Origin: Leptolyngbya sp. CCY15150
GTDB taxonomy: Bacteria; Cyanobacteriota; Cyanobacteriia; RECH01
Direction of reading: 5' to 3'
Length of the DNA: 36,179 nucleotides
NCBI RefSeq assembly: GCF_016888135.1
Contig: NZ_JACSWB010000124.1
Coordinates: 1 to 36,179 of the forward strand
Under the pieces are notes generated by a model. The model saw only the letters and a list, made by a program, of their open reading frames with translations, was not told where the DNA came from and made no database searches. The position numbers and the translations under genes were made by a program. Of this stretch, positions 5,624 through 32,772 are shown one piece after another. The first letter of the stretch is position 1. Every line of letters begins with the position of its first letter.

Positions 5624-6184
5624 ATGCTATCTCCTAACCTCTTAGACACGGCTCAGTCCCTCGCACAACGCGAAAACCTAGGCAGTCTGTTGTTACACAC
5701 TAAGCCAGCCCGCAACGATTTAGTACGATGGTTCCTGCTCAGTGTACTCTGTCTTTTACCTGGATTTTTCATGTGGGTTGCAATGGTAACTGCTGATAGT
5801 GATGTTCGTTCTGACGACACCGCTATGGACTGGATACCACTGGTGTTGTCTATATATATAATCATGAGCTTGATTGGGGCGGCAAGCTTTATAGCCTATG
5901 CGTGGAAGAAAAGTAAGCATCAGATTTTACTCTATGAGCAAGGTCTGATTGAGTTTCGAAACAACAAACCCCAAGTGGCACGGTATAAAGATTTGAAGAT
6001 GCTTTCTAAGGGAATGAGAGTAACTGCCTATAAGGTTGCAACGCTGGCAACCGCTGTTGACTATACCCTTGTATTTCCTGATGGACAGCGATCGCGCATT
6101 GATTGGTCTTATGGTCGTCGTCCTGTTGGTGCAATGATTCAGGGTTTAATTGCTCAACATAAATCCATGAATGTGTCGTCATAA
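5624..6184 (+). CDS. Two-TM protein with PH-like domain (DUF6585-like)
   Basis: A 186-residue product. Two transmembrane helices lie at about residues 36-57 and 70-91 and are linked by an acidic loop (ADSDVRSDDTAMD). They are followed by KKSKHQILLYEQGLIEF and a beta-rich C-terminal half ending DGQRSRIDWSYG. The pattern of a glycine after 'LYEQ', a 'YKDL' strand and 'FPDGQ..RIDW' suggests a cytoplasmic PH-like domain as in DUF6585 proteins; this is a recollection-level assignment. ATG 5624 is preferred because the earlier in-frame ATG at 5441 lies inside the fba terminator stem. Function unknown. Confidence 0.6.
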   Translation: MLSPNLLDTAQSLAQRENLGSLLLHTKPARNDLVRWFLLSVLCLLPGFFMWVAMVTADSDVRSDDTAMDWIPLVLSIYIIMSLIGAASFIAYAWKKSKHQILLYEQGLIEFRNNKPQVARYKDLKMLSKGMRVTAYKVATLATAVDYTLVFPDGQRSRIDWSYGRRPVGAMIQGLIAQHKSMNVSS

Positions 6185-6826
6185 TCTTATCTGTATCTAG
6201 GTCAAAGCTAAATCACTCTGGAGGTTCTCAGTCTGTCAGCATTGTGCTTTTAGGTAAGCCGTATAGATAGAGCAGCCATAGACTCAGCCCGTCTGCACCA
6301 AGATGGCGTCGTCTTCAAAGAAACAGAGCGATCGCTCTTCTGCTTGTTGGTGGGGGTGCAATCGCTTGAGCGGCGGCGGATTTAGTCCGCCTAGAACTTA
6401 TGTACTAAATTGCATATATTGATCCTGTGCTGATCGTGAAGATTGTCTGAAGCTAGTCGTGCAACACCCTGAAATGGAAGTATTATGTGACATAAGTATA
6501 CATAATCACCCTATGTTAAGTGTATAGGCTGACCAAGATCTGTATAACACCCTAAGTAGTGTAGATTATGCAGACAACTTTCAGCCTAATCCTCTCTGGG
6601 GGAGATAATACTATAGTCGGAGTCTGGCTAATCATCCTTGTGGGGGTGTTATGCAGATCAAAAGGGAGGTATTCAGTATAAACAATAGTTATACTGTTTA
6701 GCCCTCGATGGAGACATACCTGAAGGTACACTGTTGGGGTCAGTAACAATGCGAACATCCAATCTCACGGCAATATGAAAGTGAGTTTTGATGCCGCCAT
6801 CACGAATAAAAGTCTAAGGAGTTGTC
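6185..6826. other. 642-nt intergenic region before parA-like gene
   Basis: I see no credible gene. It holds a short hairpin GGCGGA-TTTAG-TCCGCC at 6375-6391, a last HIP1 site near 6327, and then AT-rich sequence with recurring GTATA-type words (near 6497, 6521, 6541 and 6677), a repeated TTATGCAGA word near 6567 and 6649, and the inverted repeat at 6674-6696. This is compatible with a partition-type regulatory or centromere-like region, but the repeats are too irregular to call iterons. Confidence 0.4.
6674..6696. promoter_or_regulatory. Inverted repeat upstream of parA-like gene (operator candidate)
   Basis: CAGTATAA (6674-6681) and TTATACTG (6689-6696) are perfect 8-bp arms around ACAATAG. 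They lie 131 nt before the ParA start. ParA-type operons are often autoregulated through such sites; here the role is inferred from position only. Confidence 0.4.
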
Positions 6827-7747
6827 ATGAAAACCATATCTATAATTAATTATAAAGGTGGGGTTGGCAAAACCACGATTACAGCCAATTTAGCAGCTAG
6901 TCTTGCACTTCAGGGTAAGAGAATTTTAATGATTGATCTTGATCCTCAATCTAGTTTAACCTTCTCTTTTTACACCGTTGAACAATGGAAAAGTGAATTT
7001 GAAAAGGGTAAAACCATCAAAAATTGGTACGACGCATTTATTGATAAAGATGGCGACTTAGATTTATCAAGCCTCATAGTCAGTCCAGATAGAGTAAATT
7101 TGAATATTGAGGGAAAGGTAGATATAATTTGTTCTCATTTAGCACTAATAAATGTTGATTTGGATTTAGCATCTCGTCTTGTGGGTGGAACAGAGCGAGA
7201 TTTAAGAAATAACTATTTACGGGTTTATTCACGATTACGGCAGGGCTTGCAAAGTTTGTCTGCTGGTAGCTACGATTTTGTTTTGATTGATTGTCCTCCT
7301 AATTTTAATATTGTGACAAAGAACGCCATAATAGCTAGTGACTGTATCCTAGTTCCTACGAAACCGGATTATCTATCAACTTTGGGCATTGAACAATTGC
7401 GTAAACATATAGATGACCTTGTTGGTACTTATAATAAATATGTGAAAGACTCAGGCAATGAGCAATTTCGTTGCGCTGCACCCCAGATAATAGGTGTTAT
7501 ATTTACAATGGTTTCATTTAAAGATGGCAGTCCTATATCTAAGCAAAGAGAATACATTCAACAAATCATTAATTCAGATGTTCCAACTTGGAAAACATAT
7601 GTTAGGGACAACAAAACTATTTATGCTGATGCCCCAGAGTATGGTATTCCTGTTGTTTTGAAGGAAGTTTCTGGGAAAACTTATGAAAATATCCAGGAAG
7701 AGTTAGCCTTTTTAACTGATGAGTTTTTGGAGAAAACCGATGGCTGA
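6827..7747 (+). CDS. Orphan ParA/Soj-family ATPase
   Basis: A 306-residue deviant-Walker ATPase. The signature KGGVGKTT lies at residues 10-17 with both the lysine typical of ParA/MinD and the catalytic-loop lysine. MIDLDPQSSLT follows at about 35-45 and the Walker B-like FVLIDCPPNFN near 157. Such proteins bind DNA as ATP dimers and position plasmids, chromosomes or protein cargo. AAGGAG lies 7 nt before the start codon. The stop overlaps the next gene by 8 nt, so the two are translationally coupled. The gene is AT-rich with no CGATCG, unlike its surroundings. No canonical ParB follows it and no parS consensus was noticed. It may be a remnant plasmid module or a cargo-positioning ATPase. Confidence 0.85.
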   Translation: MKTISIINYKGGVGKTTITANLAASLALQGKRILMIDLDPQSSLTFSFYTVEQWKSEFEKGKTIKNWYDAFIDKDGDLDLSSLIVSPDRVNLNIEGKVDIICSHLALINVDLDLASRLVGGTERDLRNNYLRVYSRLRQGLQSLSAGSYDFVLIDCPPNFNIVTKNAIIASDCILVPTKPDYLSTLGIEQLRKHIDDLVGTYNKYVKDSGNEQFRCAAPQIIGVIFTMVSFKDGSPISKQREYIQQIINSDVPTWKTYVRDNKTIYADAPEYGIPVVLKEVSGKTYENIQEELAFLTDEFLEKTDG

Positions 7748-8189
7748 TCTTCAGAAAACCAGGAAGGTGTTACAGGCTTTTTTGAAGTTTCTCGATGAGA
7801 TTAGTGAAGAGGAATACGAGCAGTTTTTGAGCGGTGAATTAAAGCTTGGCTTTTTATCCGAAGCTCAACAAAAAGAAAAAGTATTTAAAGGTGCATTAGA
7901 AGAAGATTTACAGGCAATTATTGAGCAGCTTCAGGAAATAACAAGTCGAGAAGAAGCCCATAAATTATTAAAGAGCGATTCACGTATTCGCTTAAAAGAT
8001 GATGTAATTCGAATAGCTAAGTTACTACAAGTTCATGTAGAGAAAAAGGATAATCGGGAGAAGATTGAAGCTAGGATTGTAGAATTCATTGTAGGTGTGA
8101 AACTTCGGAATCAAGCAATCCAAAGCTTAAATCTGAGCAGTAGTGTTGGAAATCCAGAGCAGTATAACAATTCGAGTGCAGCGGATTGA
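7740..8189 (+). CDS. Small partner protein of ParA (unknown family)
   Basis: A 149-residue, highly charged, mostly helical protein that I do not recognise. Residues 1-75 are Glu/Lys/Gln-rich helices (FLDEISEEEYEQFLSGEL, LEEDLQAIIEQLQEI). Residues 85-120 form two helices separated by a short turn (LKDDVIRIAKLL then NREKIEARIVEFIVG), reminiscent of SAP or Rho-N helix-extended-helix motifs. The C-terminus is Asn/Ser-rich and likely disordered. ATG 7740 overlaps the ParA stop, so coupled translation is likely. In this position such proteins often act as the DNA- or cargo-adaptor that stimulates ParA; that role is inferred. Confidence 0.6.
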   Translation: MADLQKTRKVLQAFLKFLDEISEEEYEQFLSGELKLGFLSEAQQKEKVFKGALEEDLQAIIEQLQEITSREEAHKLLKSDSRIRLKDDVIRIAKLLQVHVEKKDNREKIEARIVEFIVGVKLRNQAIQSLNLSSSVGNPEQYNNSSAAD

Positions 8190-21043: not shown

Positions 21044-21156
21044 TGGAAGGGAACTCTCGCCTGATCTTCGGCAGAGGACTAGCCTGATCCATCGCTTGAT
21101 CCCCGTTCTGGTCTATGCCAGGATTAAGCATGGGATGTGTGGGGCGATCGCTGGCT

Positions 21157-22620
21157 ATGGGTACTCTGGACGACTTTCAACAACAATGGATGGTCTTGCT
21201 CGATCGGGTAGACGACTGCACATCTGAGAAAGCCCTAGAAGATCAGGTTTTGCTGCCCCTGCTGGAACTGTTGGGCTACAAAAGCCAGGATTTAGTTCAG
21301 CAAGCCCCCTTTGGTAAACGGCGGGTCGATTTTTTGGTCAAAGTTCAGAAAACTGCGCCCTACTGCCACTATTTGATTATCGAAGCCAAGGCACCGTCCA
21401 AATCCATCGCCCATACGAGCTGGCAACTGCGGTATTATTTGCGCGATTCGGGCACCGTCCTGGGTCTATTGACTAACGGTCATCACTTCAAGCTGTTCTA
21501 TAACGATGGAGAGGCGATCCATGCGCTTTGGACCTTTAGCCGCGATCAGCTCTACAAGGACTATCGTCTACTGGGCTCCTTGCTGTGGCGGCGTAACTGC
21601 GATCGCGTCATGGACGTTTTTTGGAACAGCCATCGCCAAGTACATCGCCGTTTAGTGAAAGCGATCGCCCAACTTTCCGATGAACCCGATGTTCTTCATC
21701 TGCTGTCCGCAGGTCAACCCCTGTCTCAACTGCCCAAGCTGCCCACTGATCCTCCCCAAAAATCTATGATTATCACCGTATTCAACAACAAAGGCGGCGT
21801 TGGCAAAACAACGCTCACCATTAACCTAGCTGCTGCCCTCAGCCATCTGGGCAAGCGGGTGCTGCTGATTGACATTGACGCCCAGGCCAACCTGACCACA
21901 GGACTGGGCATCGATCCCCTAGAAGATGTGGAAAAGCTCGGTCGCCAAGATATTACCCACCTGCTCACCGATCCCAGGGTGACGGTCGAATCCGTGACCC
22001 TACAGAAACGCTGGGGTGATGTGGTGCTGGATATTATTCCATCCCATATTCGCCTGAGCCACATGGAAAATCAGTTAGTTCAGCTCATCGACGGCGATCG
22101 CATCCTAGAGAAAAAGCTGAGAAATCACGGCTATGACTTTGTGCTCATCGATCCGCCACCCTCCTTCGGTAAAGTCAACAAAATTTCCCTGATGGCATCC
22201 GCAGGGGTCTTGGTGCCTACCCAGCTTTCGCCCTATCCGATCCGCGCTTTGGAATATGTGCTAACCCAGGTAGAAGAAGTGGATCAGTTTCGGGAAACGC
22301 CATTGCCGATTGTGGGCATTGCTGTCAGCATGTACGATCGCTCATCACGCACCTTCAACCGCACCATGGTGGAAGAATTGCACGATCGCCTCAACCGTAT
22401 ACCAGGAGGCGATCAGGTCTCCATGTTCAGTGAAGAAAGCTGGGTGCCGCGACTGAATGTTATTTCCAAGTCCCAGGACAATGGCTGTCCGCTCTTCGCC
22501 CTAGACTATATGGATAAGTTAAATTCTTCAGACCGCACCTCAGTAGAAAATGCCGTGGCATCTTTTGAGAGTCTTGCCCAAGAACTCTTGCAAAAGGTGG
22601 GCATTTCGGCTACAAGCTAA
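21157..22620 (+). CDS. PD-(D/E)XK (HsdR-N-like) nuclease domain fused to ParA ATPase
   Basis: A 487-residue fusion. Residues ~1-115 match the HsdR N-terminal restriction-nuclease type: LEDQVLLPLLELLGY, the metal ligand D58 in RRVDFLV, E76 and K78 in IIEAKAPS, and a QxxxY motif at Q90-Y94 (WQLRYYL). All catalytic positions are therefore intact. Residues ~205-485 form a ParA ATPase with KGGVGKTT at ~212-219, LLIDIDAQANLT and FVLIDPPPSF. The start at 21157 is chosen because MGTLDDFQQQW begins the folded domain; an in-frame ATG at 21130 with AGGA 6 nt before it is a real alternative. A ParB-like gene follows after 30 nt. Several HIP1 sites show it is at home in this genome. A role in plasmid partition, defence or genome surveillance is open. 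Confidence 0.8.
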   Translation: MGTLDDFQQQWMVLLDRVDDCTSEKALEDQVLLPLLELLGYKSQDLVQQAPFGKRRVDFLVKVQKTAPYCHYLIIEAKAPSKSIAHTSWQLRYYLRDSGTVLGLLTNGHHFKLFYNDGEAIHALWTFSRDQLYKDYRLLGSLLWRRNCDRVMDVFWNSHRQVHRRLVKAIAQLSDEPDVLHLLSAGQPLSQLPKLPTDPPQKSMIITVFNNKGGVGKTTLTINLAAALSHLGKRVLLIDIDAQANLTTGLGIDPLEDVEKLGRQDITHLLTDPRVTVESVTLQKRWGDVVLDIIPSHIRLSHMENQLVQLIDGDRILEKKLRNHGYDFVLIDPPPSFGKVNKISLMASAGVLVPTQLSPYPIRALEYVLTQVEEVDQFRETPLPIVGIAVSMYDRSSRTFNRTMVEELHDRLNRIPGGDQVSMFSEESWVPRLNVISKSQDNGCPLFALDYMDKLNSSDRTSVENAVASFESLAQELLQKVGISATS

Positions 22621-22650
22621 CGTGAGCCATCCACAACCCCGTCATGAACC

Positions 22651-23631
22651 ATGAATGATTATCAAGAGCGCCGTAACCTGATTCGTAAAAGTCTGAAAAT
22701 TCAGCCAATGAGCCATGGGCAGGTTCATATTTTTACCGTAGGGATGCGATCGCGCCCCGATATCACCAGCGATCGCTACGAAGAACTGCGCTTGAGCCTG
22801 AGCAACCACGGCAGCAACCTCATTCCCATTATGGTACGCCGCAGCGATCGCCTCGGCGATGAAAAGGAGTATGAGGTCATCCATGGAGCCGACTGGGTAG
22901 TCGTGGCGGAGGATCTAGGCGTTGAGATGCTCTGGGCTTGGGTGTTTGATCTCACCGATGAGCAGGTTGACGTGGCTTGTCAGGAATGGGACATGCTGAT
23001 GAATGCCCCCGGCTCCATCTCAGATTCTGTAACCGTTTCCTCAACTCCGACGGCAGCTTCAGGACTCTCCCTTGCCGATGTGTCTCGCCTTTTAGAGCAA
23101 ACGTTAGATCAAAAACTAGGTAGCTCATCTACTGGAATCTCTCTGGATGACGTGTCTCGCCTATTCGATCAGAAACTAGACCAGAAGCTGGATCAAAAGC
23201 TAGGTAGCTTATCTGATCAGCCGCAGTCATCATCTCACCTCGACCATCGCATTGACTCCCTCAGTCATCTCGTAGAATCCCTAGCCAACACTGTCCAGGC
23301 CCTGACCCAACAGGTTGGAATACCTGTCTCACCTCACGACTCAACCGACGCAGCCCGAGCTATGGTTGAGTCCATTGAGCGATCGGTGACCCATCTCTGT
23401 GATCAAGTCACGCAAGGCTCCAGCATCACGCTCACGATTCAACCGCCCCCTCGCCCCATCGATCCAAAAGAAGCACTCTTGCGAGACCTCTACAGCGATA
23501 TTGCTGAAAAAACACTGAGGAGTCGCGCCAAGAAATTAGGTTTGCCCATCAAGACTGGAGACAAAAAACCAGAATTGATCAATGCCCTGATTGCTTGGCA
23601 TTCAGCTCAGGGATCGGCCGGTGGAGCGTAA
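22651..23631 (+). CDS. ParB-like protein with coiled coil and C-terminal SAP/Rho-N-like motif
   Basis: A 326-residue protein, partner of the preceding ATPase (30-nt gap). Residues ~30-115 resemble the ParB N-terminal fold: YEELRLSLSNHGSNLIPIMVRR, then YEVIHGADWVVVAEDLG, then WVFDLTDEQ. The GERR CTP-binding motif of true ParB is replaced by HGADW, so canonical CTPase clamping is unlikely. The middle holds DVSRL and DQKLDQKL repeats (about residues 144-190) and heptad-like helices, consistent with a coiled coil. The C-terminus (LRSRAKKLGLPIKTGDKKPE then LINALI) looks like a SAP or Rho-N DNA/RNA-binding motif. It probably bridges DNA and the ParA moiety. Confidence 0.75.
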   Translation: MNDYQERRNLIRKSLKIQPMSHGQVHIFTVGMRSRPDITSDRYEELRLSLSNHGSNLIPIMVRRSDRLGDEKEYEVIHGADWVVVAEDLGVEMLWAWVFDLTDEQVDVACQEWDMLMNAPGSISDSVTVSSTPTAASGLSLADVSRLLEQTLDQKLGSSSTGISLDDVSRLFDQKLDQKLDQKLGSLSDQPQSSSHLDHRIDSLSHLVESLANTVQALTQQVGIPVSPHDSTDAARAMVESIERSVTHLCDQVTQGSSITLTIQPPPRPIDPKEALLRDLYSDIAEKTLRSRAKKLGLPIKTGDKKPELINALIAWHSAQGSAGGA

Positions 23632-23825
23632 GCCAACGCTGGTAAAGTCGTTTGTTGACCTGCTATCCAGGCGATCGCTTGTCCCCAGTCCAGCCGCCAA
23701 GAGGACATCGATCATGGGGATGCCCATCGAGCATCCATAGGGCACACTGGATATATCAGGGAACTATAGTGGTCAGCACCGACCGCAACACGTCCGGTAT
23801 CCAGTGGTTGATAGGAGTCTTCGGA

Positions 23826-26800
23826 ATGGGAGAACCATTGCAGCATGGCGAGGCCGGCACCGCTCGCCTTGGTTCACAGCGCCAGAATCAGTATGTTTAC
23901 CTCATAGGTTTGCTGCTCGTCTTTTTGCTGCCCTTTGTGGTGGTCGTGTATCAACTCATTGCGGAAGTTGATGCCCGCATTGAGTTTGGCCGCCGAGAAC
24001 TCCACGGCAACACCTACCTCCAGCCCCTAGAGCAGATGCTCTATCACCTGCCCCTGCTGGACAGCGATCGCCTCCAAGGATTGTCCGTCCAAGCCTCTCC
24101 CCGCATCGCCCAACTGGATCAAGACTTCGCCGATCTCAAGGACGTCAACCATGACTATGGCGCAGCCTTTCAGGTTTCTGACCGGGTCAAGGCTCTAGAG
24201 CAAGCGTGGCAAACTTATTCCCAGAACTGGAGGACGGAGTCAGAAGCGTCCCCCATAGTAGCCACCCCTAGCCCAGCGATCGCTCCCCTGCTGCGAGATA
24301 TTCGGGGTTTGATGCTGCAGGTGGGCAATTTTTCTAACCTCATCCTCGATTCAGACCTAGAAAGCTACTACCTGATGGATGCGGTGGTGCTCAATATTCC
24401 TGACCTACAGCGGTTATTGGCTGATATCCAGTCCACCGTGGAAGCGATCGCCCACCATCCTCAGGTAACCTCTGCCGATCAGGAACGCTTGGCCATGCTC
24501 TCCGGGGTTCTGAGCGATAATCTAGAGTCCTTGACCGCTGGCCTAGCCATTGCCCTGGCCCATAGCTCGAATCCAGACCGCGACAGCAGCTTGATCCCCG
24601 CCATTCAAGAGGTCACTGCTGCTCTCACCCAAGTCCTATCGATGCTCCAAGGGCAGATTGATGGCGCGGGATCTACGATCGCCTCCCGTGCCGCCATCCT
24701 ACACCAGGGTGTGGAGGCCAGCGATCGCCTTTGGAGCCAGACCAGCCAAGCCCTACAGCAATGTCTAGAGGCAAGAATTCAACCGCTGATCCATAAAACC
24801 TATGGTGTCAAAGGGTTTGCGATCGCTGTCGGCGGGGTCTTAATCTACGCGTTTATCGCCTTCCTGTATAACCTCCAAGATCAACGGCGCGGTTCTCTGC
24901 GTCTAGAAACTCAGTATCGTACCGCCCAGATTTTGGCCGAGTCGCTCACGTTGGAAGCGGCGGGGCCGGCTGTCTTGAAAACCGTTTGCGAAACCCTAGG
25001 TTGGCGCATTGGCGAACTCTTACAGGTAGACGCCTCCCAGACCAAGTTACAGCGCACGGCGGTCTGGGCTCCGACGGATCTGATCCTGTCTATGGTGCAG
25101 GATCCAGCTTGGCAAACCACCTTTGAAGCAGGTCAGGGGCTACCGGGACAGGTATGGCAACAGGAGCAGCCGGTTTGGATGGCGGATGTAATCACCGATC
25201 CTGAGTTTCAGCGGAAGGCGATCGCCCAAACGCTTAATCTGCTATCGGCCTGTGGCCTACCGATTGTGGTTGATGGCTGCATCCTAGGCGTCTTGATTTT
25301 ATTTGGCGATCGCTCTCGACAGCCCAGCCCCGACACCTTGAATGTGCTCCAGGCCGTGGCCAACCAAATGGGGCAGTTTATGAAAACTCGCGAAGCAGAT
25401 ATGGCTTTGCAACATAGCGAAGCCCTTCAGCGCATGGCGTTGAGTGCTGCTGGCATGGGCGTTTGGGATTGGAATATTCTCACCGGGGAAGAAAACTGGT
25501 CACCGGAGGTAGAGAGCATCTTTGGTCTAGAGCCGGGCACCTTCCACGGCAGCTATGAAGATTTTCTAACTTATCTCGTACCTGAAGATCGGGAACGGGT
25601 GCAGGCGGCGGAAAAGCTAGCCTTTGAAAATCATAATGAATACACCTCCGAATATCGCGTTCGCTTGTCCGATGGTACCCTGCGCTGGTTGACCAGTCGG
25701 GGGCGGTTTTTGCGAGACAGTAACGGCAAGCCCGAACGGCTCACCGGCATTGTCATGGATATCACCGATCGCAAACAGGCCGAACTGGCCCTTGCCGAAA
25801 GTGAACAGCGGCTGCGTCAGGCTGAGGAAAAATATCGCAGTATTTTCGAAAATGCTGTGGTGGGCATCTTCCAAACCACCCAGGATGGTCGATATTTAAG
25901 CGCTAACCCCGCCCTTGCCCAAATCTATGGCTATGAGTCGTCCCAGGAGTTGATGACGCAGGTCACCGATGTGAGTCAGCAGCTTTATGTTGATCCCAAC
26001 CGCCGTCAAGACTTTGTGGATCACATAGCAGCTACGGGACGTGTATCTGATTTTGAGTCCCAGGTCTGGCGACGGGATGGCCAACTTATCTGGATTTCAG
26101 AACAGGCGATCGCCGTTGAAAATGACCAAGGCCAGATCTTTTATGAAGGTATGGTGCAAGATATTACCGGACGGAAGGAAGGACAGGCTGCGTTGCGGGA
26201 CAGTGAAAATCGGTTTCGCACCCTGCTGAATAATATCCCCGGTGCCTTTTATCGCTGCGCCTATGACCAAGTCTGGACGATGAAGTTTTTAAGCGACGCC
26301 ATTGAAGACATCTGTGGCTACCCGGCAGAGGACTTTTTACTGAACCGTCGTCGTAACTTTACCGAAATTACCCATCCTGAGGATCGGGACTACATTCATC
26401 AGGAAGTCAACCAAGCTATCCTGGGCGATCGCCCCTATGTTCTGGAATATCGGATCATTCACGCGAATGGCGGACTGCGCTGGGTCTATGAAAAGGGGCA
26501 GGCTATTTTTGATGATCACGAAAATCTCCAATATCTAGACGGCGTCATTTTTGATATCACTGAACGGAAAAAGACCGAGAATTTCCTCGATCGCCAAACC
26601 CAAGTCCTAGAAGCGATCGCCTCGGGTGTCGAGCTGTCCCAGGTTCTCGATCTACTGATTGAGATCATCGAAGCTCGGAGCGATCGCCCCATGTTAGGCT
26701 CGATTCTCCTGCTGGATGAGAGTGGTCAACGCCTGCGTACAGGAGCTGCTCCCCACATGCCTGCCGACTTTCTCGCCGCCGTCGATGGCTTGCCCATTGG

Positions 26801-28706
26801 CCCCAACAGTGGCTCCTGCGGTACTGCTGTCTACCGCCAAGCCCCGGTCATTGTGGCGGATATTGCTGCGGATTGCCTCTGGGCTTCCTTCCAGGATCTA
26901 GCCAATGCCCATGGATTTCGGGCCTGTTGGTCTGTTCCGATTAAGTCGTCCCAGGGCAATATTTTCGGTACCTTTGCCCTCTATCTCCAGCAGCCCGGTA
27001 GCCCTGGCCCTCACGACTGGCACCTGATGGAAACCGCTGCCCACCTAGCTGGCATTGCCCTAGAGCGGCAGCGCACCGAAATGGAGCTGCGGCAGGCGAA
27101 GGATGCAGCGGAAGCCTCCAGCCAAGCCAAGAGCCAGTTCTTGGCCAACATGAGCCATGAACTACGCACTCCCCTAAATGCCATCATTGGCTACAGCGAA
27201 ATGATGCGGGAAGATGCGGAGGATTTTGGCTACAGCGATGTTATCCCCGATCTAGAGAAAATTCGTGGGGCTGGCAAGCATTTGCTGGACTTGATTAACG
27301 ATATTCTCGACATTTCTAAAATCGAAGCGGGACGTATGGAACTGCACTTAGAGCCCTTTGATATTTGGGACTTGGTGCAGGATGTAAAAACAACGATTCA
27401 TCCCCTGGTGGAGAAAAACCATAATCACTTTGTGGTCAACTGCGACGCCGCGATTGGCAGCATGTGTGCTGACATGACCAAGGTGCGACAGATGCTGTTC
27501 AACCTGCTCAGTAATGCCGCTAAGTTTACCGAACAAGGACAGATTACCCTGACCGTGACCCGATCGCCCCGTCCTGCCGATATGGATTCCCCGAGCGATC
27601 GCTCTGATTTGGAGCGACCATCGGTCGATGGGTTGCTCTTGCAGGTCAGCGATACGGGCATTGGCATGACCGAAGCTCAACTGCAGCGGGTCTTCCAAGC
27701 CTTTACCCAAGCAGATGCTTCCACCACCCGTAAGTATGGCGGCACGGGGCTGGGCCTGGCGATTAGCCAACGGTTTTGCCAGATGATGGGCGGTGATATC
27801 CGCGTTACCAGCCAACTGGGGCAAGGATCGGTGTTTAGCATTTGGCTGCCCATCCAGGTGGTGGTTCAGACCCTGCCCGAGCCCGAGCCGTCCGATAATG
27901 CCGCCACTCCCATCCCTATCTCCATTGCCCTAGCATCCGCGGAGCAGCCCACGGTGTTGGTGATTGACGATGACGTGACGGTTCATGATCTGATGCAGCG
28001 ATCGCTGAGCCAGAGCGGCTTCCGGGTCGAAGTTACCACTGATGGCACCGAAGGCATCCGCCTAGCGCGGGCCCTGCATCCCCATGTGATCATCCTCGAT
28101 GTCTTGATGCCCCATATGAACGGCTGGGACGTACTCGCCATCCTCAAAGCCGATCCGATTTTGATGGATGTGCCGGTGATTTTGATGACCATCTTGGATG
28201 AACAAAATCGTGGCTTTACCCTGGGTGCATCGGATTATCTCACCAAGCCCATTGACTACAAACGATTGGATCTGCTGCTGCAAAAGTATCGTCCCGACGA
28301 TGCCCTAGGCGATCGCCCCCATCGTGTCTTGGTGGTCGAAGATGATCAGGCCACGCGGCAAATGTTCCAGCGCATTTTGCAAAAAGAAGGCTGGCAGGTG
28401 ACCACGGCGGAAAATGGTCGTCTGGGGCTAGAGGCGATTCAGGCCCAGCAGCCTGACCTGATCCTGCTGGATTTAATGATGCCAGAAATGGATGGATTTG
28501 AATTTATGGATCAGCTGCGGCAACAAGACCGAGGGCGATCGCTGCCGGTGGTGGTGGTGACGGCCATGGATCTTAGTCTCGATGAACGCGATCGCCTCAC
28601 CGGTCGCGTGGAAAATATCTTACAAAAGGGTGCCTACAGCCGCGATCAGTTGCTCAAAGAAGTCCAGCGCTTAGTCTTCACCTATTTACCATCACCAACA
28701 CCATAG
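23826..28706 (+). CDS. Hybrid sensor histidine kinase (TM-GAF-PAS3-GAF-HisKA-HATPase-REC-REC)
   Basis: A 1626-residue membrane sensor kinase. TM helices at ~22-48 and ~328-349 bracket a ~280-residue helical extracytoplasmic sensor. These are followed by GAF (~365-522), three PAS/PAC units (~533-655, ~668-790, ~795-915), a second GAF (~925-1080), HisKA with phospho-His1111 in MSHELRTP, and HATPase_c ([21 protein letters not shown]). Two receivers follow with phospho-Asp at about 1425 (ILDVLMP) and 1549 (LLDLMMP). ATG 23826 has AGGAG 8 nt upstream; the longer upstream reading lacks hydrophobic or domain character. It heads a run of four same-strand signalling genes. The ligand is unknown. Confidence 0.92.
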
Positions 28707-28807
28707 CAACCCCCTGCGTCTAGGCCACGTTTTTCCCAATCTCCACCCCGATCTATCTCCTATCCATCGGCTGAGAATGGGTGCCCTTTTGTTCAGGATG
28801 CTGCACT

Positions 28808-31126
28808 ATGCCTTTGCGAAATCGAATTTTACTGAGCATTACCTCCCTACTGGTGATTAGCGTGCTGTCCACAGCGGCCGTCATGACCCTCGGTGCCCGC
28901 CGGGTCATTCTCATGCAGGCTGAGGCCGATGGCATCCTCATCGCCCAGTTTCTGGCCCGCATGACCCGCTTTAGCAACCAGGTTCAAGACCAAATTGAAG
29001 TGGATTTGGGGCAGCAGATGGTGGTGCAGGCCACCTTGGCTAGTCATCTGGTGGCGATCGCTGAAGCGGCGGGGTTAACCGAACCTGAGATTAATCAACA
29101 CCTGCGACAGATTGTGGAATCCACCAGCCTCAACGAATTTTGGATCACCGATGAACGCGGCTATGCCTACCTGCGCAACGATGAAACGGTTGACTTTACC
29201 TTCAGCCCCAGCCGCAGCCTGCAACCCCAGGCCAGCGCCTTCTGGCCCCTGCTCACCGGTGAGGAGCAAGTGGTGATTCAATCTGCTCGCAACCGCGAAC
29301 TGGATAATCGCTTGTTTAAATACGTCGGCGTTGCCGGGTTCGATCAACCGCGCATTGTCCAGGTGGGCTATGAAGCCTATGCGCTGCTGGAGTTGCGGCA
29401 GAGGATTGGCCTGTCCCGGCTCACCAGTGAACTGATTCAAAGCGACAGCATTGTTGCCGTACGCATTGTCGATACCGATCTCGAAAACCTAGCGCGGAGC
29501 GTCAAGGCCGGGGTGCCCGGTGTGGCTAGCCTCAATAATCCGAACGATATTGCCAATGTGCGGCGCGTATTGGCCCAGGGCGATCCGATGAGCTACCTGG
29601 AAGGGAGCTTGTTTAAGGTGATTGTGCCGATCACGGATGCCAACCAAACTATTACGGGAGCAACGGTGCTCTACCTGTCTACCGAACATATCCAGGTCGC
29701 TCTGCGCCAAGAGATCAGCCAGTTGGTGATTGTCACGCTGCTGATTTTAATGGTGGGGCTCTTGGCCTCTTTGATCCTCTCGCGGTTAATCACGGCCCCT
29801 CTCGGCCGGCTCACCCTGGCCGCCAGCGCTGTCCAAGACGCCACCTTTGATCCCGACATGCTCACCTCCATCGCCCGCTCTCGCGATGAGCTGGGATTAC
29901 TAGCCCGCACCTTCCAAACCATGATCCAGCAAGTCTCTGAGCGGGAGCAGGGTCTGAAAAATGCGAGGGAAGCCCTGCGACGCAGCGAGGCCTATTTCCG
30001 CTCCATTATTGAAAATGCGTCGGATGTGATCATGATTTTGGATGAAACAGGGCAGATTCATTACAGCAGTCCATCGATTCTCGCCATTTTGGGCTACTCC
30101 GCTGGCGATCTACAGCAGCAACCCATGGTCTCCTACATCCATCCCGACGATCGCGCCTTGATGGATCAGTATTTTCAAGAGGCGATCGCCCAACCGGGCA
30201 CCCTGCCGCCTCGGGATCTACGGGTGCAGCACCGTAACCAAACCTGGCTGATCATGGAAGGGGTATTGAACAATCTCCTCAATGATCCAGCTATTGAAGG
30301 CATGATCTTAACCCTGCGCGATATTACGGAACGCAAGCAGGCCGAGGTGATGCAGCAGGAGAAGGAAACAGCTGAACAGTCTAACCGGGCCAAGAGCCAG
30401 TTTTTGGCCAACATGAGCCACGAACTACGGACGCCCCTGAATGCCATCATTGGCTATAGCGAAATGTTGCAGGAAGATGCCGTTGACCTCGGGCAGGATA
30501 CCTTCATCCCCGACCTGCAAAAGATCCAAACCGCTGGGCAGCATTTACTCACCTTGATTAACGATATTTTGGATTTGTCCAAAATCGAAGCCGGGCGGAT
30601 GACCCTTTACCTAGAACCCTTCGATGTGGCTCTGCTGGTGCAGGACATCGCCAACACCATCCAACCGTTGCTTGATAAAAACAACAATCAACTAACCGTG
30701 ACCTGTGCCGCTGATATCGGCATGATGTCGGCAGATCTCACCAAGGTGCGCCAAAATTTGTTCAACCTGCTCAGCAATGCCGCAAAATTTACCGCCCAGG
30801 GCAAGGTGGAACTCGTGGTCACCGCCTCACCGTCTCCAAAGGAACTGGGAGGCGATCGCCCTGTCGATGGCCTGATGTTTCAAGTACGGGACACCGGTAT
30901 TGGCATGTCGGATGATCAAATCAGCCGCCTCTTCCAGGCCTTCACCCAAGCAGATGCCAGCACCACCCGCAAATATGGCGGCACGGGGCTAGGGCTGGCG
31001 ATCGCCCAACGCTTCAGTCACATGATGGGTGGAAGAATTCATGTAGCTAGCCGATTAGGGCAGGGCAGTACATTTACCATGTGGTTACCCAGGGTGGTTC
31101 AAGATCAAGCAGATGGCGATCGCTAA
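28808..31126 (+). CDS. Sensor histidine kinase (dCache-like/HAMP/PAS/HisKA/HATPase)
   Basis: A 772-residue protein. TM1 lies at ~6-30, a ~270-residue periplasmic dCache-like sensor at ~31-303, TM2 at ~304-324, HAMP at ~325-378 (SRLITAPLGRL) and PAS at ~396-510 (SIIENASDVIMILDETG). HisKA carries His538 in MSHELRTP, and HATPase_c at ~641-767 has NAAKFT, DTGIGM and GGTGLGLA. There is no receiver of its own; the single-domain response regulator 222 nt downstream is the obvious candidate partner. The catalytic core is very close to that of the preceding kinase (for example [17 protein letters not shown] in both). ATG 28808 has AGGA about 9 nt upstream and puts TM1 right at the N-terminus. Confidence 0.92.
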   Translation: MPLRNRILLSITSLLVISVLSTAAVMTLGARRVILMQAEADGILIAQFLARMTRFSNQVQDQIEVDLGQQMVVQATLASHLVAIAEAAGLTEPEINQHLRQIVESTSLNEFWITDERGYAYLRNDETVDFTFSPSRSLQPQASAFWPLLTGEEQVVIQSARNRELDNRLFKYVGVAGFDQPRIVQVGYEAYALLELRQRIGLSRLTSELIQSDSIVAVRIVDTDLENLARSVKAGVPGVASLNNPNDIANVRRVLAQGDPMSYLEGSLFKVIVPITDANQTITGATVLYLSTEHIQVALRQEISQLVIVTLLILMVGLLASLILSRLITAPLGRLTLAASAVQDATFDPDMLTSIARSRDELGLLARTFQTMIQQVSEREQGLKNAREALRRSEAYFRSIIENASDVIMILDETGQIHYSSPSILAILGYSAGDLQQQPMVSYIHPDDRALMDQYFQEAIAQPGTLPPRDLRVQHRNQTWLIMEGVLNNLLNDPAIEGMILTLRDITERKQAEVMQQEKETAEQSNRAKSQFLANMSHELRTPLNAIIGYSEMLQEDAVDLGQDTFIPDLQKIQTAGQHLLTLINDILDLSKIEAGRMTLYLEPFDVALLVQDIANTIQPLLDKNNNQLTVTCAADIGMMSADLTKVRQNLFNLLSNAAKFTAQGKVELVVTASPSPKELGGDRPVDGLMFQVRDTGIGMSDDQISRLFQAFTQADASTTRKYGGTGLGLAIAQRFSHMMGGRIHVASRLGQGSTFTMWLPRVVQDQADGDR

Positions 31127-31348
31127 AGCCTAGGCCTATCCCGACGGTGCTATGGACGCGTGAAAAATGCAGCAGGATGGTTGGGGAAAAAACTCATGCT
31201 GGTAGATATACGGAGGGGCCGCGGCCCGACCTTAACAATCGCAATCGTGAAAGGGCATCTTAACGTTCATGCCTGGCACGCCCTACCTATGATGGAGAAT
31301 ATAGGTGGCGGGAGTTCAGTATTTTCCCCGTAATCTTGGAGAGACGTC
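31127..31348. other. Leader of the response-regulator genes
   Basis: These 222 nt hold a perfect 12-bp palindrome GGGCCGCGGCCC at 31216-31227 but no gene. A separate promoter for the two downstream regulators is possible; no convincing -35/-10 pair was identified. Confidence 0.3.
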
Positions 31349-31723
31349 ATGCCCATCATCCTCTTAGTCGAAGATAATGAAATGAATCGGGACATGCTGT
31401 CTCGTCGTCTCACCCGTCGAGGGCATGAGGTGTTAATGGCCGTCGATGGAAAACAGGGGGTGGCGATCGCCCAAGACCAACAACCACACTTAATTTTGAT
31501 GGATATGAGCCTACCGGTGCTCGATGGATGGGAAGCAACCCGTCAACTCAAAGCCATGCCCAAGACCCAGCACATCCCCATTATTGCCCTCACTGCCCAT
31601 GCCATGGCAGGCGATCGCCAGAAATGCATCGAGGTAGGCTGCGATGACTATGATACAAAACCGATTGACTTTAATCGCCTACTTACTAAAATACAAGCTC
31701 TTTTAACATCACCAACGCCATGA
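31349..31723 (+). CDS. Single-domain response regulator (CheY/DivK-like)
   Basis: A 124-residue receiver-only protein with the acidic pocket EDNE at 8-11, phospho-acceptor Asp52 (LILMDMSLP), the Thr of ALTAHAM and the conserved Lys of DTKPID. GGAGAG lies about 7-8 nt before ATG 31349. It has no output domain, so it would act by protein interaction or phosphotransfer, most likely with the neighbouring kinases. The stop overlaps the next start as ATGA, indicating coupled translation with the receiver-cyclase. Its N-terminal half closely resembles the receiver of that cyclase (NRDxLSRRLxRxGH in both), pointing to a local duplication. Confidence 0.93.
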   Translation: MPIILLVEDNEMNRDMLSRRLTRRGHEVLMAVDGKQGVAIAQDQQPHLILMDMSLPVLDGWEATRQLKAMPKTQHIPIIALTAHAMAGDRQKCIEVGCDDYDTKPIDFNRLLTKIQALLTSPTP

Positions 31724-32772
31724 CCGGGACTCGTGGACTGATCCTCGTCGTAGACGATAACGAAACCAACCGTGATCTACTCTCGCGACGACTTTCGCGC
31801 TTAGGGCACGATACAGTAATGGCAGAGCATGGGCAGCAAGCCCTCGACCAAGTGCAGCACCACGCCTTCGACCTGGTCTTGCTAGACATCATGATGCCCA
31901 ATATGACGGGCTATGAGGTGCTCGAACGCCTCAAGGCAGACCCAGCCCAGGCTCACATCCCGGTGATCATGGTCTCCGCCCTAGACGACATCGAAAGCGT
32001 GGTGCGCTGCATTGAGCTAGGGGCAGAAGACTACTTGTTTAAGCCGTTTAACCCTACTCTGCTGCAGGCCCGGGTGACCGCTAGCCTAGAAAAGAAGCGG
32101 ATGCTTGACCATGAACGGGCCATGATGGAAAAACTCAAGGCGGAGCAGGAAAAATCCGAGGCGCTGTTGCTGAATATTCTGCCAGGGGCGATCGCCACCC
32201 GTCTCAAGCAAGGCGAACAGGTGATTGCCGATAACTTTGCCGATGTGACGGTGATGTTTGCCGATTTGGTCAACTTTACGGAACTCTCCGCCCAGCTCGC
32301 GCCGCCTGAATTAGTGGCATTGCTCAACCGCATTTTTTCCACCTTCGACCAGCTCGCCGATCGCTATAATCTCGAAAAAATCAAGACCATCGGAGATGCC
32401 TATTTGGTGGTAGGCGGCCTACCCACACCCCGCCCCGACCATGTCGAGTCTGTGGCGGAGATGGCCCTAGCCATGCAAAAAGCGATCGCCCAGTTTACGG
32501 TATCCCCCGCTCAACCGACCCTCACTATGCGCATCGGCATCAACACTGGCCCGGTAGGCGCTGGGGTCATTGGCATCAAGAAGTTTGCCTATGACCTCTG
32601 GGGCGATACGGTGAATACCGCTAGCCGCATGGAGTCTCTGGGTCTACCAGGACACATCCAGGTGACGGAGACGGTCTATGAACGCCTTAAGGATAAGTAT
32701 CACCTCGAACCCCGAGGGGCGATCGAGGTGAAGGGTAAAGGCGCGATGATGACCTATTTTCTCAGAGGGTAG
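31720..32772 (+). CDS. Response regulator-adenylate cyclase (class III)
   Basis: A 350-residue protein. The receiver domain (residues 1-125) has Asp56 in LLDIMMP. A coiled-coil linker follows (~125-165, HERAMMEKLKAEQEKSEALL), then a class III nucleotide cyclase domain (~170-350). Both metal-binding aspartates are present (D182 in FADLVNFT, D226 in TIGDAY). The ATP-selecting Lys222 and Asp292 (FAYDLWGD) and the transition-state Asn299 and Arg303 are also present, so it should make cAMP under control of phosphorylation. It overlaps the preceding regulator by 4 nt. Its stop is 17 nt from that of the converging repeat-protein gene, with no terminator between them. Confidence 0.93.
   Translation: MTGTRGLILVVDDNETNRDLLSRRLSRLGHDTVMAEHGQQALDQVQHHAFDLVLLDIMMPNMTGYEVLERLKADPAQAHIPVIMVSALDDIESVVRCIELGAEDYLFKPFNPTLLQARVTASLEKKRMLDHERAMMEKLKAEQEKSEALLLNILPGAIATRLKQGEQVIADNFADVTVMFADLVNFTELSAQLAPPELVALLNRIFSTFDQLADRYNLEKIKTIGDAYLVVGGLPTPRPDHVESVAEMALAMQKAIAQFTVSPAQPTLTMRIGINTGPVGAGVIGIKKFAYDLWGDTVNTASRMESLGLPGHIQVTETVYERLKDKYHLEPRGAIEVKGKGAMMTYFLRG

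Follow-up and report, generated by a model that had tools for sequence, protein, structure and literature searches.

The nuclease-ParA fusion and its ParB-like partner

The window analyzed here, a 36,179-nucleotide stretch of a Leptolyngbya sp. CCY15150 contig, carries two co-directional open reading frames (ORFs) on the forward (+) strand, at the positions given for them in the original prediction. The first encodes a 487-residue protein (21157..22620) in which a putative N-terminal HsdR-like nuclease domain is fused to a ParA-type ATPase, while the second encodes a 326-residue ParB-like adaptor (22651..23631). An alternative upstream start for the fusion ORF lies at 21115; the start at 21157 was preferred because its ATG coincides, in the alignment, with the position at which close homologues begin. 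The domains and motifs of the two proteins given below are on the + strand. Profile searches on both proteins, as had been proposed from the letters alone, recovered HSDR_N_2, AAA_31, and ParB_N.

The fusion had been predicted to contain an HsdR-type domain with all catalytic positions present (D58, E76, K78, and Q90-x3-Y94). When the window protein was scanned alone, Pfam HSDR_N_2 matched residues 53-115 with an E value of 5.8e-4, under the curated cutoff; across subfamilies 1 and 2, the same family matched 57 of 58 members at E < 0.01 (best, 4.7e-9). Conservation was assessed in an alignment of 58 fusions from these two subfamilies, which are ~27% identical to each other. Within the domain core (residues 24-116; 21226..21504), D58 (21328), E76 (21382), K78 (21388), and Y94 (21436) were invariant in all 58 homologues, as were E24 and N107. 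The remaining active-site position, Q90 (21424; active-site residues together, 21328..21438), is glutamine throughout subfamily 1 (41/41) and arginine or lysine in subfamily 2. The predicted catalytic set was thus upheld, with the QxxxY element holding in full, of these two subfamilies, only for subfamily 1. The nuclease-partition idea had also been staked on homologues not consistently lacking D58, E76, and K78, and none of the three is lost in any of the 58.

In the predicted structure of the fusion (pLDDT of 88.7), the nuclease part runs helix 24-38, strands 46-52, 55-62 (D58), and 71-77 (E76), K78, helix 89-98 (Q90 and Y94), and strand 102-106. This predicted order is as expected for PD-(D/E)XK enzymes, and the fusion possesses the defining features of that superfamily, a catalytic D and ExK in a predicted alpha-beta-beta-beta-alpha-beta core. 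Assignment of the putative nuclease part to PD-(D/E)XK rests on the Pfam match, the motifs, and this predicted order. Comparing the nuclease domain by sequence with the PDB yielded nothing beyond a chance-level match to BpuSI, and matches from a structure search with the whole fusion were taken up by the ParA part.

The ATPase domain (residues 203-481; 21763..22599) matched AAA_31 over residues 205-378 (E = 3.5e-43). Its Walker A (21790-21810), which had been described as deviant and complete, is retained as KGGVGK in 58/58 fusions. A structure search with the model matched the ParA part to Soj (Z of 34.5; rmsd of 1.7 over 251 residues) and, below it, to McdA (Z of 30). Over the whole protein, dN/dS was about 0.06 to 0.2 in most close pairs (0.46 in one pair), i.e., selection is purifying, and this applies to both halves.

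The partner had been predicted to combine a ParB-like fold without GERR, a DQKL-rich coiled coil, and a C-terminal SAP/Rho-N-like motif, and each element was recovered. ParB_N matched residues 34-106 of the window partner (E = 8e-4) as well as 30/41 and 15/17 partner relatives (best, 1.3e-10). The AlphaFold model (pLDDT of 79) combines a ParB_N fold with long helices and ends in three helices resembling SAP; a Foldseek search of the PDB matched it to the N-domains of Noc/ParB (E = 7e-6), along with PadC. In the ParB_N-fold domain (residues 19-117; 22705..23001), GADW stands in place of GERR. The GERR/GxxR arginines are absent from 58/58 partners of subfamilies 1 and 2, with a GNS-type motif found in subfamily 3; ParB-fold proteins that lose the P-motif arginine no longer bind nucleotide (PMC12704722). 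No helix-turn-helix (HTH) family was among the Pfam matches listed for the partners, and the corresponding region is predicted as long helices. The DQKL repeats lie in a predicted helical/coiled-coil segment (residues 165-253; 23143..23409; model helices 165-187, 194-221, and 228-253).

The C-terminal module (residues 272-322; 23464..23616) is SAP/Rho_N-like according to the model helices, its profile class (SAP), and its relatives, in which Pfam detected Rho_N in 14/41 and SAP in 6/41 tails. Classification of 82 partner tails yielded 22 of SAP/Rho_N type, 32 of HhH type, 18 of an unnamed module weakly similar to HhH ("LTW"), and 10 unclassified. Both SAP tails (L134 and L135) and LTW tails (L094 and L131) are found joined to subfamily 2 heads, and tail type changes at least eight times on the fusion tree. 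The putatively DNA-binding tail is thus exchangeable between lineages.

Some of these features would suit a positioning or partition system resembling ParABS or McdAB, in which ParA gradients form on the nucleoid, the partner acts as a cargo adaptor, and the nuclease domain adds only DNA binding or a regulated nick. The ParA part is closest to a chromosomal Soj and resembles a cyanobacterial McdA, and the partner adds a conserved N-terminal basic/hydrophobic segment to its ParB_N fold. However, the partner has no detected ParB HTH and no GxxR (0/58), the regions upstream of the genes hold no conserved parS-like inverted repeats or iterons, canonical ParB genes are present elsewhere in the window genome, and plasmids bearing the pair have ParM. 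Invariance of the catalytic residues would also be needless in such a system, which we consider unlikely.

Gene pairing, subfamilies, and distribution

The original prediction had treated the two genes as a unit and named rare co-occurrence as grounds for abandoning the idea. In our neighborhood survey, the partner adjoins the fusion in 68 of 72 loci from subfamilies 1 and 2, a frequency that argues against chance pairing. Among 50 distinct subfamily 1 loci, 46 have the partner adjacent and downstream, and three of the four exceptions stop at a contig edge; a subfamily-specific version of the partner was present at all subfamily 2 loci examined. Partner sequence was also present at 18/20 further loci, with the remaining two cut at contig ends. 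The fusion at L097 genuinely departs from this pattern, having no partner next to it. Apart from the partner, no conserved third gene was found. The commonest other neighbors are generic (response regulators and a glycosyltransferase), with a divergent ParA-like gene at part of the loci.

Fusion and partner frames often overlap, by 4 bases or a few more. This overlap and the tight gene order could indicate a toxin-antitoxin or addiction-like pair, in which the ParB-like protein restrains a toxic nuclease-ParA fusion; as precedent, a toxin-antitoxin function has been proposed for a HEPN RNase and the ParA/Soj ATPase adjoining it (PMC3710099). We regard this explanation as very unlikely, given that the partner is large and multidomain and that the L097 fusion lacks a partner, as assessed by adjacency only.

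Several loci depart from the standard layout. In a Cyanosarcina locus (L070, about 5900-7611), the ParA part and partner are kept with no nuclease domain detectable upstream, an apparent natural loss of that domain. In L131 (7065-7943), a complete pair is flanked by a ParA of this family that lacks the nuclease (292 residues), subfamily 1 and 2 systems occur in tandem in L149, and in L084 and L086 a subfamily 2 pair is followed by a lone subfamily 1-type partner. The ParA-like gene, which is divergently transcribed (about 294 to 333 residues; MGYVIATANMKGGVGKTTLTVNLATCLAK...) and lies 0.2 to 1.8 kb upstream of the fusion, occurs in members of both subfamilies (L041, where it is called at 405 residues, L055, L057, L058, L059, L061, L085, L091, L111, L113, and L133-L135); in L095, the same gene is upstream of the fusion and co-directional. 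Elsewhere in the window, a second ParA-like gene (306 residues) at 6827-8189 overlaps a 156-residue helical-looking protein (7719-8189), representing an orphan ParA that may have a small partner. Downstream of the pair (23652-32772), a large hybrid histidine kinase (1,684-residue ORF) is encoded together with another kinase, a response regulator, and a response regulator-guanylate cyclase.

While the original prediction drew on a single locus, the survey revealed three subfamilies in about half of the sampled Cyanobacteriia. The third, more remote subfamily comprises shorter fusions (about 445 to 470 residues) that carry the D, ExK, and QxxxY motifs; all 14 members aligned have D, E, K, and Q, 13 of the 14 have Y, and HSDR_N_2 scored above the curated cutoff in three of four members scanned. 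Its layout is the same, with a partner that has ParB_N similarity, most often a Rho_N tail, and usually a 1- to 4-base overlap with the fusion. Profile comparison joined the subfamilies at 99.2% for the nuclease and 97.8 to 97.9% for the partners, and by these profiles we take all three to be homologous. Among 291 sampled Cyanobacteriia genomes, subfamilies 1 and 2 occur in 95 and subfamily 3 in 83 (union of 144), usually as one copy per genome and almost always on the chromosome. The one match outside Cyanobacteriia, within the same phylum, likewise comprises nuclease, ParA, and partner; its fusion has broken reading frames. Full-length relatives were found only in cyanobacteria by a pattern scan of 84,980 species, a scan that reaches only close relatives.

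Loss, exchange, and proposed function

In a congener (G042), both flanks lie on one contig and the segment corresponding to 21093..23461 of the window is absent. The last ~170 bp of the partner gene remain as a SAP remnant in frame and mark a single deletion that removed nearly all of the pair. Decayed copies of the pair are not rare. The closest relatives of the window fusion belong to three other families, and bacterial families are split over the gene tree (28 changes versus a minimum of 17), i.e., the tree conflicts with taxonomy.

A search of 72,556 plasmids returned no subfamily 1 match covering the fusion and no partner match. Subfamily 3 was present on two Nostoc plasmids, each of which also has its own ParM. 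These related mobilizable plasmids of one strain (Nostoc sp. UHCC 0870; L173 and L174) carry different subfamily 3 pairs, each near a short site-specific integrase and annotated only as an AAA family ATPase or ParA plus a Rho-N protein. A role in plasmid partition was rejected on the basis of these plasmid results. Phage origin was likewise rejected, as no full-length match was found in phage records or IMG/VR.

Taken together, the presence in 144/291 genomes, the loss in G042, the decayed copies, the tree that splits families, the tail exchanges, and the plasmid copies near integrases on plasmids with ParM indicate accessory behavior. The conserved chemistry, intact ATPase, obligate-looking partner, exchangeable tail, patchy distribution, and joint loss of the pair are together best explained by a nuclease that is switched by ATP and acts on DNA in an accessory role, with invading DNA as the most likely target. 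From these sequence features, we propose, with a probability of roughly 0.4, that the pair is an accessory two-gene DNA-targeting nuclease system, switched by ATP, tethered by its partner, and likely directed against invading or aberrant DNA. In this proposal, ATP would cause the ParA part to form a sandwich dimer on DNA, bringing two nuclease domains together. The partner, dimerized through its coiled coil and tethered to DNA through its tail, would engage the ParA part and stimulate ATP hydrolysis, thereby setting where and for how long the nuclease stays armed. The likely substrate would be invading or aberrant DNA, such as that of a phage or plasmid. Among the functions suggested originally, survey of foreign DNA is favored and action on plasmids is possible; conversion of the nuclease fold into a DNA-binding domain is disfavored because the metal-binding and catalytic residues are invariant.

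Several observations count against the proposed nuclease system. No recognizable defense islands were seen by eye around the loci, and no mobile-element or restriction genes recur among the neighbors of the 72 loci. PADLOC 2.0 likewise matched no system model over the two proteins; the fusion gave a partial ATPase match (PDC-M28B) and weak mad2/mad8 matches, and coiled-coil-type matches came from only one partner. Long-term purifying selection fits housekeeping equally well, and L070, without a detectable nuclease, and L097, without an adjacent partner, also count against the proposal.

Repair proteins commonly contain HhH and SAP modules, and the presence of such modules in the partner tails would be in keeping with DNA repair or chromosome-copy maintenance in polyploid cyanobacteria, where an ATPase-gated nuclease would process aberrant host DNA (stalled forks or unlinked copies). 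The pair is also chromosomal, mostly single copy, and long-lived, with low dN/dS. Nevertheless, its distribution is patchy and horizontally mixed, it has been lost inside one genus, and some copies lie on plasmids; a repair or maintenance role seems improbable to us. Returning to the ATP-switched, partner-tethered nuclease, a tentative extension would be a new class of machine for immunity or genome surveillance. Its ParA-type ATPase would patrol DNA and arm the restriction-type nuclease fused to it, under the guidance of a non-CTP ParB-like adaptor with a DNA-binding tail that is exchanged between lineages.

The patterning of DNA and organelles is carried out by ParA ATPases, and DNA cleavage is the activity of PD-(D/E)XK enzymes; to our knowledge, ParA-type ATPases have long been known only for positioning cargo. 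If the proposed reading is true, this conserved pairing would offer a new means of nuclease control and, probably, a new route to defense or genome maintenance in a phylum of central ecological importance. The gene pair is directly testable in tractable thermophilic and filamentous hosts.

Comparison with known systems

With ParABS, the pair shares a ParA ATPase with a deviant Walker A (KGGVGK and the Soj match) beside a ParB_N-fold protein. In contrast, the ParA here bears an N-terminal nuclease domain, the partner has SAP/HhH tails and neither an HTH match nor the GxxR arginine, and no parS was found near the pair's genes. The pair falls outside ParABS because the CTP-binding arginine motif of ParB (GERR/GxxR) is missing.

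The HsdR subunit of type I restriction systems shares the N-terminal nuclease domain (HSDR_N_2), a PD-(D/E)XK domain with D, ExK, and, in subfamilies 1 and 3, QxxxY. Unlike HsdR, the fusion carries a ParA ATPase rather than an SF2 helicase, and no HsdM or HsdS genes recur among its neighbors; lacking the helicase domains and modification genes, the pair does not belong to type I restriction-modification. McdAB likewise consists of a cyanobacterial ParA-type ATPase and a partner gene, and McdA is among the structural matches. However, the pair has a nuclease domain and a partner with a ParB_N fold and a putative DNA-binding tail in place of McdB, and we saw no conserved carboxysome-gene neighbor.

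ParB folds joined to other activities are known from a survey of ParB-fold domain fusions (Kaljevic et al. 2025; PMC12704722) and from GmrSD-type ParB-HNH enzymes. In that survey, ParB-DUF3850 is the only fusion type consistently beside parA; thus, the present pair, which carries the public annotation "AAA family ATPase" and for which our searches returned no description, appears to be undescribed in the literature searched. The window partner scores below the ParB_N cutoff applied in the same survey. Whereas the ParB-fold fusions and GmrSD-type ParB-HNH proteins join the additional activity to the ParB fold, the nuclease domain here sits on the ParA protein.
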